From NCBI GenBank assembly GCA_951812335.1, contig OX638293.1:1596731-1660730 (forward strand): a stretch of DNA of 64,000 bases. Reading direction: 5' to 3'. The notes below the pieces were generated by a model, which saw only the letters and a list, made by a program, of their open reading frames with translations, did no database searches and was not told where the DNA came from. Shown here in pieces: positions 29,388-37,362 of the stretch. The position numbers were made by a program, and so were the translations under genes. Each line of letters starts with the position of its first letter. Position 1 is the first letter of the stretch. Source of the stretch: Rhodothermales bacterium. Lineage in GTDB: Bacteria > Bacteroidota > Rhodothermia > Rhodothermales > VXPQ01.

Positions 29388-30713
29388 TTATTTCGCTTTG
29401 TCCGGCGCCTTGACGATCCGGTTCAGTCGTTCCATGACGATGTCGGGCCGACACCGCCCGGGATACCCATCTACGCGGTACGCTTCCAGCGCTTCTTCTG
29501 CCGGAGGTTTCCGGATAGCGTCCAGTTCGCCGGCGGTCCGGCGATACGCTTCCCGAAACGGCGTTCCCTTTTGCACCATGCCGATGGCGCGGGCGGTGGC
29601 GAACAAATCGGGGGATACGGCCTTGTCGAGGCGCGCCTTGTCGAAGCGCATATCCCTGAGTACAACGGCCATTGCTCCGGTTACATTCGAAGCCGTGTGT
29701 ACGGCGCGTAGAACGGCCTCCTTGGTGAGTTGCAGATCTCGATGGTAGCCTGAAGGCAGGTTTGCGGGGAGGGACGCCAGCAACTGCATTTCGGCAAAAA
29801 TTCGGTGGTACGACGCCCGCACAAGTTCCGGTACGTCCGGATTCCTTTTCTGAGGCATGATGGAACTTCCCGTGCTGTAGGTATCGCCGGGTTTCAGAAA
29901 ACCGAACTCTGCTGTGTGATACAGCACAATGTCTGCGGCAAGGCGATTGCATGTCCCCGCGATTTGTGCGAGAGCATGAACGACATCCAGTTCCAGCTTT
30001 CCGCGCGATAACTGTACGGCGGTAACATGCTCCTGGACTCCGTCGAAGCCGAGTCGACGGGCCATCTTCTCGCGGGGAAGCCCCAGAACAGGGACCCCGT
30101 ACCCCGCCGCTGACCCGAGAGGGGATACGTTGATGCGCTTCGCCGTTTCCTGCAATCGTTCGATATCGACCGTGAGCAGTTCAGCGAAGCCCATTGCCCA
30201 CAAACCTACCGTTGCGGGCATGGCGCGCTGCATGTGCGTATATCCGGGTATAATCCAGTCGTCTCCCTCTTCGCCCCACCGACACAGGATCCGAACCATG
30301 TCTGCGGTTTGCCGCATTATTCCCGACAAGGCGTCTCGGAGATACAATCGAAGCGCGGCGAGCACCTGGTCGTTTCGGGAGCGCCCTGTGTGGATTTTCC
30401 TGCCGATGTCGCCGAGTGCTTCCGTCAGGCGATTTTCGATCACGGTGTGGGAATCTTCGTCTTCGGGGCGGACAGAGAGTTCTTGTTCCGCCAGCGCATC
30501 CAGTGTTTCGACGACCGCATCGAATTCCGCCTGTGTCAGGATCCCGATTTCCATCAACCCCCAGGCATGGGCGCGGGTTGCCCGTATATCGTACGGCAAC
30601 AGGAGCGTATCCCACCGATAGTCCTCTCCAACGGTGAATTGCATCACCTGGTTTTCGAGCGTTTCGGGTGCGTCCGATTTCTTCCAGAGCGGGGGGGGCG
30701 ATGGGTGTGTCAT
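29388..30713 (-). CDS. argH: Argininosuccinate lyase
   Basis: Last step of arginine synthesis: argininosuccinate to arginine plus fumarate. 441 residues. The fumarase/aspartase superfamily signature is GSSIMPQKRNPDVPE, with 'HTGRSRNDQV' and 'GYTHMQRAMP' for substrate binding. It is the final gene of the arginine operon; its ATG overlaps the stop of the M20 deacylase gene (ATGA at 30710-30713), so translation is coupled. The C-terminus is somewhat shorter than E. coli ArgH but no catalytic part is missing. Confidence 0.96.
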   Translation of the reverse strand: MTHPSPPPLWKKSDAPETLENQVMQFTVGEDYRWDTLLLPYDIRATRAHAWGLMEIGILTQAEFDAVVETLDALAEQELSVRPEDEDSHTVIENRLTEALGDIGRKIHTGRSRNDQVLAALRLYLRDALSGIMRQTADMVRILCRWGEEGDDWIIPGYTHMQRAMPATVGLWAMGFAELLTVDIERLQETAKRINVSPLGSAAGYGVPVLGLPREKMARRLGFDGVQEHVTAVQLSRGKLELDVVHALAQIAGTCNRLAADIVLYHTAEFGFLKPGDTYSTGSSIMPQKRNPDVPELVRASYHRIFAEMQLLASLPANLPSGYHRDLQLTKEAVLRAVHTASNVTGAMAVVLRDMRFDKARLDKAVSPDLFATARAIGMVQKGTPFREAYRRTAGELDAIRKPPAEEALEAYRVDGYPGRCRPDIVMERLNRIVKAPDKAK

Positions 30714-31774
30714 GATTCGAAGTAAGCTTCAATAACGGAACGATAGACCTCCACGGCGCGCTGCACCTCGGCGATCGGGATATGTTCTTCCGAGGTATGG
30801 GACAATCGACTCGATCCCGGTCCGATTTTGACGGTTGGGACATCAGCCAGAAATATCCAGTCCGACGCCGTGGGAGACCCGATCGGTTCGACATCGGGAA
30901 TTGCGCGGAGGCATGCCTGGACGATCCGTTCGTTCGGATCCGTAGCGACGGGCACGATCCGCTCGCTATGCACATGTACTTCCGATTCGAGCGCATCCTG
31001 AACGATATCGATCAATTCCTTGTGGGTGTAGACCGGTGTCGACCGGATGTCGAGGGTAAACGTACACCGGTCCGGCACGACGTTGCGCGCCGAACCTCCC
31101 GTTACGGTGGTTACGGTAACCGTAGGGTATCCCAGAAAAACATCCTCCCGTTCGAAGACAAGGTTCATAGCGCGCTCAATGTCTCTCGCAGCGCCTGCTA
31201 TAGCATTTTGCCCGAGATGCGCCCGGGCGGCATGGGATGTTTTGCCCTGTGCTTCCACGCGCAGCACCAGCAGGCCCTTTTGGGCGATGCACGGAACGAG
31301 GTTGGTGGGTTCGCCTACGAGAGCCGCCGCCGGATTCGGCAGATGCGGGCGCAATGTCTTTAGTCCATTATAGTCTCCGCCCGTTTCTTCGCAGGCAGTC
31401 AATGCCACCACGATCCGCCCGGAAGGCCGGAAGCCATCGGCAGCCACCGAAAGGAGCGCAGTGGTCATGGCGGCGACAGACGCCTTCGCATCCACGCTGC
31501 CACGCCCGTACAGGCATCCTTCCGATTCGATAGCATCGAATGCGCCGTGCGGGTGATGCTCCGACGGGGGCACCGTGTCGAGGTGCGTGTTCAGCAACAA
31601 TACGTCGTCGCCTTCTCCGAATCCGAAGAACACGTTATCGTCGATGCGGCCCGTTTCTATCCCGTGATGTGCAACATATTCCTCCATAAATCCGGCGGCG
31701 TTTTTTTCCTCGCCGCTGAGCGAAGGGATGCGCACGAGCTCTTTCAAAAGCGCTATGACATCTTTGTGGGGCAT
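30710..31774 (-). CDS. M20 N-acyl-amino-acid deacylase (probable N-acetylcitrulline/acetylornithine deacetylase)
   Basis: 354 residues from the ATG at 31774. The zinc-dependent M20 fold is clear: 'LLLNTHLDTVPP' with the first metal His/Asp, 'LYGRGSVDAKASVAA' with the bridging Asp, 'ACEETGGDYNG' with the general-base Glu pair, and 'GEPTNL'. It lies between argB and argH in an operon that has an N-acyl-ornithine carbamoyltransferase. In that pathway (worked out in Xanthomonas) the acyl group leaves at the citrulline stage, so this enzyme most likely deacylates N-acylcitrulline, not N-acetylornithine. DapE or LysK activities are alternatives that the sequence alone does not exclude. Confidence 0.82.
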   Translation of the reverse strand: MPHKDVIALLKELVRIPSLSGEEKNAAGFMEEYVAHHGIETGRIDDNVFFGFGEGDDVLLLNTHLDTVPPSEHHPHGAFDAIESEGCLYGRGSVDAKASVAAMTTALLSVAADGFRPSGRIVVALTACEETGGDYNGLKTLRPHLPNPAAALVGEPTNLVPCIAQKGLLVLRVEAQGKTSHAARAHLGQNAIAGAARDIERAMNLVFEREDVFLGYPTVTVTTVTGGSARNVVPDRCTFTLDIRSTPVYTHKELIDIVQDALESEVHVHSERIVPVATDPNERIVQACLRAIPDVEPIGSPTASDWIFLADVPTVKIGPGSSRLSHTSEEHIPIAEVQRAVEVYRSVIEAYFES

Positions 31775-31805
31775 GCAGTGCGGGATAGCATGGGTATTGC
31801 AGGTA

Positions 31806-32588
31806 TCAATGCATAATACGAGTGCCCGTCGAGGGGTCCCGAATACCTTCCGGGGACACGATGAATACGTTCGGAATGCCGGCATCGAGCGCGGCGAAGC
31901 CCACGTCGATCTTTACACGCATTCCGTCGGCGATCCACCCTTCCTGTACACCCCGGGAGCATAGTTCAGCATTGAAGGAAGATAAAAGCGAATCCGGATC
32001 GACAGCATTTCTGCGAATGCCGCCGATTTCCGTGACGAGCAGATATTCGTCTGCCCGCAAGGCCTCCGCCAGGGCGCAGGAGACCGTATCGGCGTTCACG
32101 TTGTACAACTGCCCCGTATGGTCGATACCAAGCGGGGCGATTACCGGGACATACCCCTGATCGAGCAGGGTATCGAGAAGCCCCGTATCGACAGATGCAA
32201 TATCTCCGACCCATCCGAAATCAATCGTTTCCCCGTCGACATTCCAGGGAGGCCGTTTTGTAACGCGCACAAGGGGGCCGTCGGCGCCGGACAGCCCCAC
32301 GGCCTTGACGCTATGCTTGACTGCGCAGGCTACAAGACGCCCATTCAGCTCGCCCCGCAGAGTCCATTGCACGATGTGCAGGTCGGCGTCGGTGGTGACG
32401 CGACGCCCATGCACCATGCGCGGGGTATGACCAAGACGTTCGGCGATCTCGGTGGCCCGGATCCCGCCGCCATGCACGATAACGACCCGCCCGGTTTCCG
32501 CCAACCGGGCCACGGAGGTCCAAAGCGTATCGAGGGGCTCGTCGCGTATGACGGATGCGCCTCCCATCTTGATGACGGTCGTTTTCAT
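31806..32588 (-). CDS. argB: N-acetylglutamate kinase
   Basis: Second step of the acylated arginine pathway: phosphorylates N-acetyl- (or N-succinyl-) glutamate. About 260 residues from the ATG at 32588, which shares one base with the argF' stop (TGATG). The amino-acid-kinase fold starts KMGGASV, then 'VIVHGGG' for ATP phosphates, 'VVTTDADLHI'-type region ('RRVTTDADLHIV'), 'PLGIDHTGQLYNVNADTVSCALAEAL' and a C-terminal 'RVKIDVGFAAL'. No N-terminal helix typical of the arginine-inhibited hexameric forms is seen, so feedback inhibition at this enzyme is uncertain. Whether it prefers acetyl or succinyl substrates should follow ArgF' specificity. Confidence 0.93.
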   Translation of the reverse strand: MKTTVIKMGGASVIRDEPLDTLWTSVARLAETGRVVIVHGGGIRATEIAERLGHTPRMVHGRRVTTDADLHIVQWTLRGELNGRLVACAVKHSVKAVGLSGADGPLVRVTKRPPWNVDGETIDFGWVGDIASVDTGLLDTLLDQGYVPVIAPLGIDHTGQLYNVNADTVSCALAEALRADEYLLVTEIGGIRRNAVDPDSLLSSFNAELCSRGVQEGWIADGMRVKIDVGFAALDAGIPNVFIVSPEGIRDPSTGTRIMH

Positions 32589-33580
32589 CAGAGCCCCCAG
32601 ACATACTCGAGAATCGCTTTCTGTGCATGCAATCGGAATTCGGCCTGTTCCAGGTGAATGGCGCCCGGTCCGTCCAGGACATCGTCTTCGACGACCACAT
32701 TGCGCCGTACGGGCAAGCAATGCATGAAGCGCGCCTCTCGCGTTTTCTGCATCCATTCCGTGGTAATACACCAATCCCGCAAGCTTTCCCGCCGCGCCGC
32801 TTCATGTTCGGGATCGGAATAGACGAGCGGTCCGCTCCATGCCTTGGCGTACACGATATCCGCGCCGTCGAAAGCTTGTTCGCGGTTATCCGTTTCCTCG
32901 ACTTGTGCGCCGTAGGACCGGGCCATTTGCATGATCCCGTAATCGAGCGCGTAGTCGTCGGGTCTCGCCACGGTCACGTTCATTCCCGATCGGGCAGCCA
33001 TCAGCACGGCGGAATTGGGCACGGCCATGGGGAGCGCTTTGGGGTGATACGTCCATGCCAGCACAAACTTCTTGCCGCGCGGATCGCCCAGTTGCCGCCG
33101 GATGACCGCGGCATCGGCCAGGGCCTGACATGGATGATAAAAGGCGGATTCGAGATTGATGATCGGCACGGACGAAGCCGAGGCGATCGTGCGGATGAGC
33201 CTTTCGTCCCGATCCTTGTTGAAACTCTTGAGCGAGGCAAAAAGCCGTACGCCGAGCGCGTCGTAGTACCTCGACAGCACGCCGATGGCTTCCCGGATAT
33301 GCTCTGCCTCCTGACCATCCATGACAGCGCCCTCTTCAAAGGCGAAACGCCATGTCTCCTGACCGGGGGTGAGTACGGTTGAGTAGGCCCCGAGTTGTGC
33401 TGCCGCCAGTTCCATGGAGGTTCTGGTGCGCAGCGAAGAATTGAAAAACATGAGCCCGATACTACGCCCCCTGGCGGTATCCGTCCATTCCCCGGCATGT
33501 TCGTAGTAATCCAGGGCCCGTTCCACAGCCGCATTCCATATCACGCGGCTGAGCGATTGCCAGTCGATCAGGTGTCTCAT
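32588..33580 (-). CDS. argF': N-acyl-L-ornithine carbamoyltransferase (AOTCase/SOTCase family, ArgF')
   Basis: 330 residues from the ATG at 33580. It carbamoylates an N-acylated ornithine to N-acylcitrulline. It aligns by eye over its length with Xanthomonas AOTCase and Bacteroides SOTCase, not with ordinary ornithine carbamoyltransferase: carbamoyl-phosphate loop FFNSSLRTRTS (45-55), 'WRFAFEEGAVMDG' (77-89), 'LAWTYHPKALPMAVPNS', 'VYAKAWSG', 'FMHCLPVRRNV' and a C-terminal 'LHAQKAI' with the Lys that is carboxylated in AOTCase. The specificity residue (Glu92 in AOTCase, Pro90 in SOTCase, from memory) is Ala92 here, so the acyl group cannot be assigned. Its ATG overlaps the argD stop (ATGA). 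Confidence 0.9.
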   Translation of the reverse strand: MRHLIDWQSLSRVIWNAAVERALDYYEHAGEWTDTARGRSIGLMFFNSSLRTRTSMELAAAQLGAYSTVLTPGQETWRFAFEEGAVMDGQEAEHIREAIGVLSRYYDALGVRLFASLKSFNKDRDERLIRTIASASSVPIINLESAFYHPCQALADAAVIRRQLGDPRGKKFVLAWTYHPKALPMAVPNSAVLMAARSGMNVTVARPDDYALDYGIMQMARSYGAQVEETDNREQAFDGADIVYAKAWSGPLVYSDPEHEAARRESLRDWCITTEWMQKTREARFMHCLPVRRNVVVEDDVLDGPGAIHLEQAEFRLHAQKAILEYVWGL

Positions 33581-34788
33581 GTGTCGACATCTACGGTTTG
33601 ACCAATGGTTAATACGGATGAGAGCGCCTCGCAAAACGCATCCAGCGCTTCGAAGGGGGTATTAATGGGGGGCATGAGCCGGATCACGTTCGGATCGTCT
33701 GCTCCGCCTGTAAGAATGCCCTGTTCCAGCAGCGCTTCGCGAACCGGAGAGGCGGGGCGATTCAGCACGATGCCAATAAGTCCGCCTCGCCCGCGTACGC
33801 TGCAGTCGAGCGGTCCCAGCCCACTGCGTATGCGTTCGAACAGTTTGGTTGCACGTGGCATGAGATGCTCTTCAACCAGCGTCCGTAGCGTAGCCTCCAC
33901 AGCGGCCATGGCTATCATCCCGCCCCCGAAGGTTGTTCCCTGATCTCCGGGTTTCACGGTCGATGCAATCTCGTCGGACAGGAGCACGGCGCCCACCGGC
34001 ACACCTGCTCCAAGGCTTTTCGCCAGCGAAATGCAATCCGGGCGCACCCCGTATTGCGTACTGACGGAGAATGTACCCGTGCGTCCTACTCCCGTCTGTA
34101 CTTCGTCAAAGAGCAGCAGGGCGCCATATCGGTCGCATAGATTCCGCAATGTGCGGTAGTATGTCGTCGTTGCCTCGACCATACCCGCCATACTCTGGAT
34201 AGGTTCGAGGAGCACCGCTGCAATATCGTCATGCGCCTCGAAAGCCTTCTCGACAGCGGCGGTATCGCCGAACGGAACGAACGTGGTTGCCGGAAGCACG
34301 TCCCGGTACGGCGCCCGGTACGCATCTTTCCACGTTACGGCGAGGCAGCCGAGGGTACGTCCGTGAAAGCCGCCCTCCATGGCAAGGATGCGCGGCCGTC
34401 CGGTATGCTTGCGCGCCAGTTTGAGCGCCGTTTCGTTTGCCTCGGCGCCGGAATTGCAAAAGAACACGTGCCGGAGCCCTTCGGGGGCCAGTGTTCCGAG
34501 ACGTTCAAGGGCGCGGGCTCGCGTATCGTTATAGACGGTATTGGAATAAAACAGGAGTTGCTCGGCCTGCGCCCGGATTGCTTCCACAACCCGGGAGGGA
34601 CTATGCCCAAGGAGCGCCACGCAGTGTCCCCCGTAAAGGTCCAGATATTTTCGCCCCTCGATATCCCACACGTAGCTGCCTTCGCCCCGGGCGAGCACAA
34701 TGGGCATGCGGGCGTAGGTGGGGATCTGGTAGAGGTTTTCGAGTGCTATAGCTTCCTGCGTAGTCATGCGTATACGGCGCGTGTTCAT
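33577..34788 (-). CDS. argD: Acetylornithine aminotransferase
   Basis: A PLP-dependent class III aminotransferase that forms N-acyl-ornithine from the semialdehyde. 403 residues. PLP-binding features: 'FFCNSGAEANETALKLAR', 'GGFHGRTLGCLAVTW', 'LLLFDEVQTGVGRTG' with the pyridine-binding Asp, and the Schiff-base Lys in SLAKSLGAGVPVGA. An ATG at 34767 (MTTQEAIALEN) could also start the protein. It lies 2 bp after argC and overlaps argF' by four bases. Members of the family can also act on succinylated substrates, which fits the ambiguous acyl group of this operon. Confidence 0.94.
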   Translation of the reverse strand: MNTRRIRMTTQEAIALENLYQIPTYARMPIVLARGEGSYVWDIEGRKYLDLYGGHCVALLGHSPSRVVEAIRAQAEQLLFYSNTVYNDTRARALERLGTLAPEGLRHVFFCNSGAEANETALKLARKHTGRPRILAMEGGFHGRTLGCLAVTWKDAYRAPYRDVLPATTFVPFGDTAAVEKAFEAHDDIAAVLLEPIQSMAGMVEATTTYYRTLRNLCDRYGALLLFDEVQTGVGRTGTFSVSTQYGVRPDCISLAKSLGAGVPVGAVLLSDEIASTVKPGDQGTTFGGGMIAMAAVEATLRTLVEEHLMPRATKLFERIRSGLGPLDCSVRGRGGLIGIVLNRPASPVREALLEQGILTGGADDPNVIRLMPPINTPFEALDAFCEALSSVLTIGQTVDVDT

Positions 34789-34790
34789 AA

Positions 34791-35807
34791 TTACGCCCCC
34801 GGAGCGGGAAGAAGACCTGCCGTTTCAGGCAAGCCGAGAAGAAGATTGAGGTTCTGGATGGCTTGTCCGGCAGCTCCCTTGATCAGGTTGTCTTCCGCAA
34901 AACCGACCAACAGGCGGCTGTCCCGGACGATCCACCCGATGTCGCAGAACGGCGAATGCACCGCAAATCGAAGTTCCGGTAATCCATCCGCATAAAGCCG
35001 CACAAACGGGCGGTCCGCATAGGCTTCCGCATACCATTGTTCCACATCGGAGGTCGCAGCGCCTGCAGGCAGCGCAATATCCGCTACGCCCCAGATGCCG
35101 CGTGTCCAGGGGCCGGAAACGGGTACAAAACGGATTTCCGCATCTGCTCCCAGCACCTGCTTGATTTCGGGGAGGTGCTGGTGACTTAGCGCCTTGTAAG
35201 CCCGCACATTTCCGTCCCGGGTCGGAAAGTGTGTTGCGGCCTTGGGGCGCGCTCCCGAGCCCGAAGCGCCTGTCCAGGCTGTCACAAAGGCATCCACCGT
35301 TTCCATATGCTGCGTAACCGGCCACAGCGCCAGACTGATGCCTGTCGCAAAACAACCCGGATTCGCAATACGCTTCGTTCCCGGGGGGTACGGTGCACAA
35401 ATCTCCGGCAGGCCATATACGAATGACGAGAGCAGGTTAGGCGCCGGATGCGCGAAATCGAACCATGTTTCGTACAGGGAGGCGTTCCCGAGTCGGAAAT
35501 CTGCGCTCAGGTCAATGAGTAACCCATCGAATCCGTCCGCGAATAACTTCGTTGCGAGTCCGGCGCTTTTACCGTGCTCGGCAGCTATGAAGATAATGTC
35601 TGTCTCGACGGGGTCGAACTCGTCCGGATCGCTGAAGATCAGGTCCAGTTGTCCGCGCAGGTGCGGGTGTGCGCACCACACCGGTTTCCCGGTATATGCT
35701 CGACTGGTAACGGTGTTGAGTCGAGCCACCGGGTGGGTAAGAAGGAGGCGGATCAATTCGCCGCCTGTGTATCCTGCGCCGTGAAGCAGGGCTATCCGGT
35801 TATTCAT
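34791..35807 (-). CDS. argC: N-acetyl-gamma-glutamyl-phosphate reductase
   Basis: An NADPH-dependent reduction giving the N-acylglutamate semialdehyde. About 338 residues from the ATG at 35807. The N-terminal Rossmann loop is LLHGAGYTGGELIRLLL, the catalytic Cys is in 'RIANPGCFATGISLAL', and 'TRDGNVRAYKALSHQHLPEI' supplies the active-site His. The first Rossmann strand reads IALLHGAGYTG instead of the commoner VGIxGASGYTG, a mild variation. It lies 25 bp after argG and 2 bp before argD. Confidence 0.94.
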   Translation of the reverse strand: MNNRIALLHGAGYTGGELIRLLLTHPVARLNTVTSRAYTGKPVWCAHPHLRGQLDLIFSDPDEFDPVETDIIFIAAEHGKSAGLATKLFADGFDGLLIDLSADFRLGNASLYETWFDFAHPAPNLLSSFVYGLPEICAPYPPGTKRIANPGCFATGISLALWPVTQHMETVDAFVTAWTGASGSGARPKAATHFPTRDGNVRAYKALSHQHLPEIKQVLGADAEIRFVPVSGPWTRGIWGVADIALPAGAATSDVEQWYAEAYADRPFVRLYADGLPELRFAVHSPFCDIGWIVRDSRLLVGFAEDNLIKGAAGQAIQNLNLLLGLPETAGLLPAPGA

Positions 35808-35832: not shown

Positions 35833-37056
35833 TCAGGCGGGCGATTCTTTCGGCGCGTTTTCCGCATTGCGGCGCGCTCTGTGCGCCAATAGAGCCTGCA
35901 CGCCGTAAATCTGCGTAAATCCCTCGGCGTCTCGTCCATCCCACAATGCGTTGGTTTCCCCGTAGACCGCCACGCGGGGGTCGAACATCGAATAAGGACT
36001 TTCGCAACCCAGCACCTCGATACGTCCCTGACGCGCTTTCACTCGCACGGCGCCGGTGACGGCGGTCTGCGACGAATCGACGAGGGCTTCAATATCCCGC
36101 ATTACCGGGTCGAAATACTGTCCTTCGTGCAGCATCTGCCCATAGTAGTCCGCCAGATGATCCTTTTGGAAGCGTTGCCGACTCGTCAGCACGATCTTTT
36201 CCAGTTCGCGATGTGCAGGGAGCAGGATTGCCGGCGCCGGCGCCTCGAAGGCTACGCGTCCTTTGACCCCGAGAATCGTATCTCCCACATGCATGCCTCT
36301 CCCGATTCCGTGTGCAGCTCCCTCGGCATTGAGTGTTTCAACAAGTGTGACCGGATCCAGAAGCGACTCATCGATAGAAACGGGAAGACCGGCTTCGAAG
36401 CCAATCGTCCATTCCTGTCCTGCGTCGGGAGCGTCGGCGGGCGCTACCGTATCTACCCATCCCTCTTCGGGGAGCGGGTTGGCGGAGGCGAGTGTTTCAC
36501 CCCCTCCGATCGTGGCGCCCCAGAGACCCCGGTTGATGGACCACACCGTTGTTTTGCGGGGTACGTCGAAGCCGCGTTCCTGTAAAAAGGCTGTTGTTTC
36601 CTCACGACTCAGCCCCAGTGACCGGATTGGGGTCAGAATGTCCAGATCGTCCGCCAGCAGACGCACGGCGACATCGAAGCGAACCTGATCGTTTCCGGCG
36701 CCGGTCGATCCGTGGGCAATGGCCCGTGCTCCGGTTTCCTGCGCCGCATGAACCACCATACGAGCTTGCGTTACCCGTTCCGGTCCGACACACAACGGGT
36801 ATACGCCGCCGCGCAGGACGTTTCCCTTGATCAGGTAGCTCAGGTGATCGTCGAACAGGGCCTTCCGCGCATCCACGAGGATGTGCCGGGCCGCGCCAAG
36901 CGCCCGCGCTCGCGCTTCAACAACCTGTGCCTCTTTTTCCGAAAGGCCCCCTGTGTTGACTGTAACCGTATATACCGGCTCGCCGCAGGTTTCGGCGAGA
37001 TACGGTACGCAGAAAGACGTATCGAGGCCGCCGCTAAAAGCAAGTACTATGGCCAT
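35833..37056 (-). CDS. argG: Argininosuccinate synthase
   Basis: Joins citrulline and aspartate using ATP. About 407 residues. The PP-loop ATP motif is LAFSGGLDTSFCVPYL (residues 5-20), with 'AHGSTGAGNDQVRFD' for aspartate and citrulline binding. The ATG at 37056 is chosen because the PP-loop follows at once. It is the first gene of the operon argG-C-D-F'-B-E'-H. Its 271-nt predicted leader contains a sigma70-type promoter, a short Arg-rich open frame and an intrinsic terminator, so expression may be controlled by attenuation. Argininosuccinate synthase at the head, not near argH, also fits Bacteroidota-type arginine operons. Confidence 0.95.
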   Translation of the reverse strand: MAIVLAFSGGLDTSFCVPYLAETCGEPVYTVTVNTGGLSEKEAQVVEARARALGAARHILVDARKALFDDHLSYLIKGNVLRGGVYPLCVGPERVTQARMVVHAAQETGARAIAHGSTGAGNDQVRFDVAVRLLADDLDILTPIRSLGLSREETTAFLQERGFDVPRKTTVWSINRGLWGATIGGGETLASANPLPEEGWVDTVAPADAPDAGQEWTIGFEAGLPVSIDESLLDPVTLVETLNAEGAAHGIGRGMHVGDTILGVKGRVAFEAPAPAILLPAHRELEKIVLTSRQRFQKDHLADYYGQMLHEGQYFDPVMRDIEALVDSSQTAVTGAVRVKARQGRIEVLGCESPYSMFDPRVAVYGETNALWDGRDAEGFTQIYGVQALLAHRARRNAENAPKESPA

Positions 37057-37117
37057 CGTTATAATGTGGGGAAAGATAAAAGGCTGTGCGGTTGGACCAC
37101 TGCGGACCCGCGCGGTA

Positions 37118-37150
37118 CAAAAAAAGCGCTGACCCAAGTGAATCAGCGCT
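37118..37150 (-). terminator. Intrinsic terminator/attenuator in the argG leader
   Basis: Read on the minus strand: a perfect 8-bp stem AGCGCTGA / TCAGCGCT with a loop of about 10 nt, followed at once by a run of seven T. It ends about 60 nt upstream of the argG start codon. An upstream AGCGCT (within 37196-37205) could pair with the first stem arm and form an antiterminator. A plain terminator of folD read-through is the simpler alternative. Confidence 0.8.
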
Positions 37151-37188
37151 GTGCAGGTAATTTGGCCAGGATTAATCCCCGCCGGGCG

Positions 37189-37287
37189 TCATAGTGAAGC
37201 GCTTCTCCACGCAAAAAGAAAGCATCCTCGTCGCAGGCGCGACGAAAATGCAACAAAACGACGACTATGTGTGCGGGATGCATGCAT
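37189..37287 (-). CDS. Candidate Arg-rich leader peptide of the arginine operon
   Basis: A 32-codon frame, ATG to TGA, with 7 Arg codons at positions 5, 9, 10, 17, 19, 20 and 28 (CGC, CGT CGT, CGC, CGA CGA, AGA). It starts about 40 nt after the predicted transcription start and ends 38 nt before the terminator stem, the layout of a classical ribosome-stalling attenuator. There is no strong Shine-Dalgarno site, as for most genes here. Another frame of the same stretch is also fairly rich in CGN, so Arg content alone is weak evidence. Confidence 0.35.
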   Translation of the reverse strand: MHASRTHSRRFVAFSSRLRRGCFLFAWRSASL

Positions 37288-37333
37288 GGGGCCTGTCAGG
37301 CGTTATGATCAACCGTCAGGTACATAATATAAC

Positions 37334-37362
37334 ATAATAACTTTCGCTGATACCCCTGTCAA
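37334..37362 (-). promoter_or_regulatory. argG: Sigma70-type promoter for the arginine operon
   Basis: On the minus strand TTGACA (37362-37357), a 17-nt spacer and TATTAT (37339-37334): a consensus -35 box and a one-mismatch -10 box. The predicted transcription start is near 37327. The -35 box lies inside a CCCC/GGGG inverted repeat, and GCCTGTCAGGC, a short palindrome, lies at 37291-37301 downstream of the start; either could be an operator. Confidence 0.6.

Follow-up and report, generated by a model that had tools for sequence, protein, structure and literature searches.

A predicted ribosome-mediated transcription attenuator for arginine biosynthesis upstream of argG in Rhodothermales

Results

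The arginine operon and its leader

The window, i.e., the whole stretch of 64,000 nucleotides analysed here, comes from a Rhodothermales bacterium whose genome is a single contig of 2.69 Mb. Judged by argG, the closest relatives are MAGs that carry the label Rhodothermales bacterium and that the NCBI taxonomy places in the phylum Rhodothermota. Downstream of the leader under study, the minus strand bears an arg operon of seven genes in the order argG-C-D-F'-B-E-H, ending at 29388, while folD is the gene upstream of the leader and argG. The genes downstream of the leader are those of the arginine pathway, so that the operon makes the very amino acid that the leader would sense.

35833..37056, minus strand: argG, argininosuccinate synthase, the operon's first gene (TIGR00032)
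34791..35807, minus strand: argC (TIGR01850)
33577..34788, minus strand: argD (TIGR00707 family match, under the curated cut-off)
32588..33634, minus strand: argF', N-acetylornithine carbamoyltransferase (NF003384; listed ORF, start codon uncertain)
31806..32774, minus strand: argB (TIGR00761; listed ORF, start codon uncertain)
30710..31885, minus strand: argE-like deacylase (TIGR01910 family match, under the curated cut-off)
29388..30713, minus strand: argH, the final gene of the run (TIGR00838)

The features of the region between folD and argG are as follows.

37334..37362, minus strand: promoter TTGACA-N17-TATTAT for the leader, with a predicted transcription start near 37327
37189..37287, minus strand: leader ORF of 32 codons plus stop, MHASRTHSRRFVAFSSRLRRGCFLFAWRSASL, of the same length and free of indels in six members of the genus
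37258..37263, minus strand: first Arg pair, codons 9-10 (CGT CGT), codon 10 invariant and codon 9 lost in two sister genomes
37228..37239, minus strand: main control codons Arg17-Leu18-Arg19-Arg20 (CGC CTG CGA CGA), Arg kept in six of six genomes
37222..37251, minus strand: 13-pair hairpin and T-rich stretch within the leader ORF, its sequence changed in G001/G002
37198..37210, minus strand: region 2, the 5' arm of the antiterminator, GTGGAGAAGCGCT, spanning the end of codon 26 through codon 30 and unchanged within the genus
37138..37150, minus strand: region 3, AGCGCTGATTCAC, common to the antiterminator (with region 2) and the terminator by duplex prediction and folding
37125..37150, minus strand: intrinsic terminator hairpin (regions 3:4), followed by T7 at 37124-37118

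An earlier, sequence-only reading of this locus had described a near-consensus promoter, a 32-codon frame with seven Arg codons and two Arg-Arg pairs, and an intrinsic terminator with a perfect 8-bp stem before argG, and all three are indeed present on the minus strand. The promoter (37362-37334) has 11 of 12 consensus matches, the frame (37287-37189) carries Arg at codons 5, 9, 10, 17, 19, 20 and 28, and the terminator (37150-37125 plus seven T) has a stem of 8 perfect pairs, or 11 counting G-U pairs, and ends 68 nt from the argG ATG (37056). When the window sequence alone was scanned, one promoter was found vs. 0.6 expected and two terminators vs. 1.2 expected, neither being above chance; an Arg cluster as dense as that of the leader arose in 1 of 200 dinucleotide shuffles. 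Since scans of one sequence at chance level are unconvincing, the weight of the argument rests on the combination of the parts and on their conservation in other genomes.

Several further features of the region were considered. The hairpin at 37251-37222 (minus strand), followed by TTTCTTTTT, resembles a second terminator; three sister genomes have nearly the same sequence, and two others carry substitutions. As the main terminator it was rejected and is not required, because its sequence is altered in G001/G002 and it overlaps the control codons. An overlapping 46-codon frame (37283-37143) was also rejected, its length not being conserved in the sister genomes and the frame being absent from G005. 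Two candidates for a 1:2 pause/protector hairpin were seen on a non-systematic inspection of the window. An Rfam scan of the window returned only two tRNAs and a SAM riboswitch, all located elsewhere, and no curated RNA family at the leader, which therefore does not match a T-box or another known RNA switch. The SAM riboswitch (RF00162; 38647-38800, plus strand) is an ordinary one, lying 5' of genes for sulphur amino acids that diverge from folD.

Alternative pairing and the position of the ribosome

The sequence-only reading had further proposed that a palindrome within the short frame, GAAGCGCTTC, can pair with the AGCGCT arm of the terminator. The palindrome does lie in the frame and provides a 6-bp match, but the useful arm extends over 37210-37198 and provides 11 bp: GUGGA-GA-AGCGCU (37210-37198) pairs with AGCGCU-GA-UUCAC (37150-37138) around a tandem GA. 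The palindrome alone was thus discarded as the antiterminator, because the wider pairing is better and conserved. In duplex prediction, the region 2:3 duplex of the window reached −17.4 kcal/mol, a value that none of 200 shuffles matched.

The nascent RNA of the window was folded under constraint, with a ribosome footprint of +13 from the A site. With the ribosome at any Arg codon from 5 to 20, the best nascent fold was the antiterminator; with the ribosome at Arg codon 28 the antiterminator was lost, and at the stop codon the terminator formed. Codon 28, an AGA, sits within region 2, such that a stall there would favour termination. For the complete RNA the terminator was thermodynamically best at every ribosome position, and antitermination must therefore be kinetic, as is assumed for trp. 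Among the 63 genomes with this layout (see below), region 3 was more paired upstream in the stalled state than at the stop codon in 44 and the reverse was seen in none (margin 0.2). For the window and its nearest sisters, a ribosome at the stop codon still left region 3 paired with other sequence upstream (0.75). The locus thus combines an Arg-rich leader, a terminator before argG, an antiterminator that uses the 5' arm of the terminator, and a geometry in which stalling and arrival at the stop codon lead to different folds.

Conservation within the genus

In the six genomes sampled from the genus, the leader frame has exactly 32 codons and no indel, with indels in the flanks on both sides. 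The start, codons 2-3, Arg10, Leu18-Arg19-Arg20-Gly21 and codons 27-30 are invariant, and Arg17 shows a synonymous change only. Region 2 corresponds to codons 27-30, and the remaining peptide drifts. With invariance falling mainly on Arg codons, the start and region 2, the constraint appears to act on the Arg codons and on RNA pairing. The pN/pS of the leader is below 0.4 among four close genomes and 0.7-1.0 against two distant ones, which does not support purifying selection on the whole peptide.

Distribution across families

The region upstream of argG was compared in 93 genomes. An Arg-dense short frame plus a terminator just before argG was found in 63 of these, belonging to 15 families, and four more genomes (G013, G053, G080 and G086) are under the thresholds but have the same layout by eye. 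These counts are semi-automatic calls in which a few automatic frame choices were wrong, three being corrected by hand, and, since related genomes are not independent, family-level statistics are preferable. For 59 of the 63 genomes, at most 10 of 200 dinucleotide shuffles were as Arg-dense as the leader, whose recurrent core is two Arg pairs, RR-x-RR. The region 2:3 duplex had a mean z of −2.16 over the 63 genomes. When each genome's own pair of regions was ranked among pairs from other families, the mean rank fraction was 0.23 against 0.5 (family-level Wilcoxon p = 0.0006), which indicates that region 2 covaries with region 3 across families. The pairing is near perfect in the G007/G021 family (−34.5 kcal/mol) and weak or not significant in f4, f10, f12 and part of f13. 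The trp/his-type layout which the sequence-only reading had seen upstream of argG, and for which it had proposed a conservation check, is supported by this comparison, since frame, terminator and alternative pairing are retained together in relatives from 15 families.

No such element was found at argG in family f15, where argG (e.g., L071, L078, L081) lacks both the attenuator and ArgR and has a common, conserved upstream stretch, GATCCA(A)...GCGTT. Nor did 20 Bacteroidota genomes outside Rhodothermia have such a leader at argG, which there follows other genes, several of them apparently acetyltransferase or argR when the sequence was read by eye.

Codon choice in the leaders

The leaders show a strong preference among Arg codons: CGA makes up 206 of 478 (43%) vs. 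27 of 419 (6%) in argG (odds ratio 11, p 3e-39), and the share of CGG is 6% in the leaders vs. 32% in argG, all leader counts having been made before the hand correction of three frames. A scan of 30 of the 43 tRNA loci of the window's genome, with their neighbouring genes, found the Arg anticodons ACG, CCG, TCT and CCT. The ACG (inosine) tRNA would read CGA, CGC and CGU, so that the leaders would concentrate demand on one isoacceptor. Theory identifies control codons as the ones read by the tRNAs whose charging responds most sensitively to starvation (PMC1183508), and the CGA bias may be understood as a choice of this kind. In the leaders of families f17 and f18 (see below) there is no CGA bias.

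Codon choice bears on the possibility that the leader senses free arginine through arrest by the nascent peptide, and not charged tRNA at the level of codons. Such a device exists in fungi, where the uORF of the arginine attenuator peptide responds to free arginine by peptide-dependent ribosome arrest; it is eukaryotic and acts on translation, and resembles the present leader as a short upstream frame controlling arginine genes. Our data do include a short conserved frame 5' of arginine genes and motifs around the Arg run that are common to some families. However, across families only the Arg residues recur and the others vary, so that the AAP-type pattern was not found; most of the codons that the genus keeps invariant are Arg codons, the start or part of region 2; and the CGA bias with its CGG avoidance points to decoding. 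Sensing of free arginine by peptide arrest is thus very unlikely.

Leader promoters and the upstream gene

A promoter score of at least 8 was obtained in 50 of the 63 genomes vs. 11% in shuffled sequence, and in 34 of the 63 the −10 box stops 6-12 nt short of the leader ATG vs. 1.7% expected. With the −10 box so near the ATG, many families would have an almost leaderless transcript; in the window's genus, exceptionally, about 40 nt would precede the ATG. The gene upstream of the leader varies by family (folD or a PadR-like gene, for instance), and the leader persists.

The terminator could in principle only end folD transcripts, with argG having its own start downstream and the frame being there by chance. 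It does lie in the folD-argG gap, and promoter and terminator scans of the single sequence gave chance-level results. Yet in most families a promoter intervenes between the upstream gene and the leader frame, often at a fixed distance from the frame ATG; the upstream gene changes between families, whereas frame and terminator persist; and the apparent covariation of region 2 with region 3 also argues against this origin. A terminator merely ending folD transcripts, which the sequence-only reading had named as its own refutation, is therefore disfavoured, and we regard it as highly improbable.

A palindrome close to GGAAGCGCTTCC was noticed about 65-100 nt before the leader ATG in f2 and f10-f14 genomes, e.g., L059 (G018). 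Similar palindromes occur in some f17/f18 arg operons (L163 5046, L164 6160) and near carA of G007 (L194); in the window, none is present upstream of the leader promoter. It is a candidate operator of some regulator.

ArgR and other operon arrangements

In many other bacteria ArgR/AhrC controls the arginine pathway in response to the same signal. A search for ArgR (PF01316) that detected it in 9 of 14 control genomes gave matches in 2 of 148 relatives. As PF01316 is absent from the window's genome (G000), ArgR control of its arg operon was rejected. G039 lacks the attenuator and has ArgR directly upstream of its argG, which is divergent; in G016, PF01316 is represented by five copies of equal score, which are probably not ArgR. 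At argG of G045, G033, G100 and f15, neither the attenuator nor ArgR was found.

In f17 and f18, argG is internal to the operon, and an Arg-rich leader precedes the operon's first gene in all 14 genomes looked at; this gene is a carbamoyltransferase by sequence match in G132 and was assigned by position and eye in the others. In 9 of the 14, the leader has an RRRCRTG, RRRRPRA or LRRRR motif and a terminator; antiterminator pairing was checked in these two families and was not significant. The Arg leader sits before whichever gene heads the operon and thus follows the operon head, although the mechanism may differ in f17/f18. Five f18 genomes (L163, L220-L223) have no terminator after the leader, which ends with IPRRR, FPRRR or RRRRQRMG, its Arg codons lying directly at the stop codon or close to it. 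These f18 leaders without a recognisable terminator, and the Salmonella speF orf34 leader, whose Arg codons are used with Rho and mRNA decay (PMC6386406), would suit a leader acting otherwise, by Rho-dependent termination, for instance, or at the level of translation, the hairpin then being incidental, but the strong intrinsic terminators with matching antiterminators in the window and 15 families make this the least probable of the explanations considered.

Discussion

The element upstream of argG is very probably a ribosome-mediated transcription attenuator of the trp/his type for arginine, sensing charged tRNA-Arg. Computation established what the parts are and that they are conserved, together with the operon, the alternative pairing and the dependence of folding on ribosome position, and these results suggest the following course of events. 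RNA polymerase would start at the promoter (37362-37334), and a ribosome would begin to translate the 32-codon leader in close coupling with the polymerase. If charged tRNA-Arg is scarce, the ribosome would slow at the Arg codons, mainly 9-10 and 17-20, leaving region 2 (37210-37198) free to pair with region 3 (37150-37138), and this pairing would block the terminator and allow argGCDF'BEH to be transcribed. If arginine is plentiful, the ribosome would reach the stop codon at 37189 and cover region 2, whereupon region 3 would pair with region 4, the terminator would form and transcription would end before argG. The operon would be expected to respond to arginine in this manner in vivo.

Attenuators are textbook knowledge for Trp, His, Leu, Thr and Phe, and arginine synthesis is normally under ArgR or, in Firmicutes, T-boxes. 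Like the trp, his, leu, thr and phe attenuators of Proteobacteria, the arg element has a leader rich in the product's codons, an intrinsic terminator before the first gene and an overlapping antiterminator, with the ribosome at the stop codon covering region 2. Unlike them, it concerns arginine, is found in Rhodothermota, has CGA-biased control codons and, in many families, a leader frame beginning no more than a few nt from the predicted 5' end of the transcript. ArgR/AhrC, a DNA-binding protein and not an RNA leader, was not found in 146 of 148 relatives including the window's genome. Nearly the whole order carries the arg element and seems to rely on it instead of this repressor.

Two other systems deserve comparison. 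In the nearest one found, the 34-codon leader orf34 of Salmonella speF, two consecutive Arg codons transmit the arginine level via ribosome pausing, but the gene controlled is that for ornithine decarboxylase and not for arginine synthesis, and the leader acts through Rho, masking of the ribosome site and decay by RNase G, and an intrinsic terminator was not found in it (PMC6386406). The polycysteine leaderless short ORFs of mycobacteria appear, from their citation in PMC9031893 (Canestrari 2020), to be similar in having a near-leaderless frame with a run of a single amino acid that serves as a responsive attenuator. These leaders sense cysteine, and no conserved terminator hairpin was found for them (PMC1262725).

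In the open-access literature searched we found no such attenuator for a bacterial arginine biosynthesis operon; the main text of a terminator survey mentions neither arginine nor Bacteroidetes (PMC2965389). In view of this and of the lack of an Rfam match, we judge that the mechanism would be the same as in known attenuators and that what seems new is the amino acid, arginine, and the phylum.

Other amino acid operons of the order were noted as well. Candidate trp leaders with Trp runs (FGWWWF, FGWWLW, GWWCS) precede trpE in G007 (L206), G018 (L211) and G058, and hisG of G058 in turn follows a His-rich leader and a terminator (the G058 loci being L208 and L185); terminators are present in three of the four candidate trp/his leaders. 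Ribosome-mediated attenuation is thus probably used for other amino acids too in the order. The 5' regions of leuA (L198, L200, L201) have in common CGACTTA..GGCGCCCG with a complementary run downstream and give no Rfam match; a LEU element has been described in Actinobacteria, to which this motif might be related. An intrinsic terminator precedes carA in four of six genomes (L191, L193, L194, L195), and the only genomes flagged as having an Arg-rich frame at carA were G007 and G012, the G012 frame starting with TTG.

A broader proposal is plausible but falls just short of what we would favour. Attenuation by an Arg leader may be the ancestral control of arginine synthesis across Rhodothermia, taking the place of ArgR and following the head of the operon; the terminator would have been lost in some f18 genomes, where another mechanism would act, the leader would be translated leaderless in many families, and sensing would be mainly of tRNA-Arg(ICG) via CGA codons.

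An arginine attenuator in most of the sampled families of the class would add an amino acid to the list of those governed by attenuation, and it would provide this group with a regulator where the usual one, ArgR, is missing. It would also imply close coupling between ribosome and RNA polymerase in Rhodothermota. Moreover, the theory that links control codons to charging sensitivity (PMC1183508) finds a natural test case in the CGA bias of the leaders.
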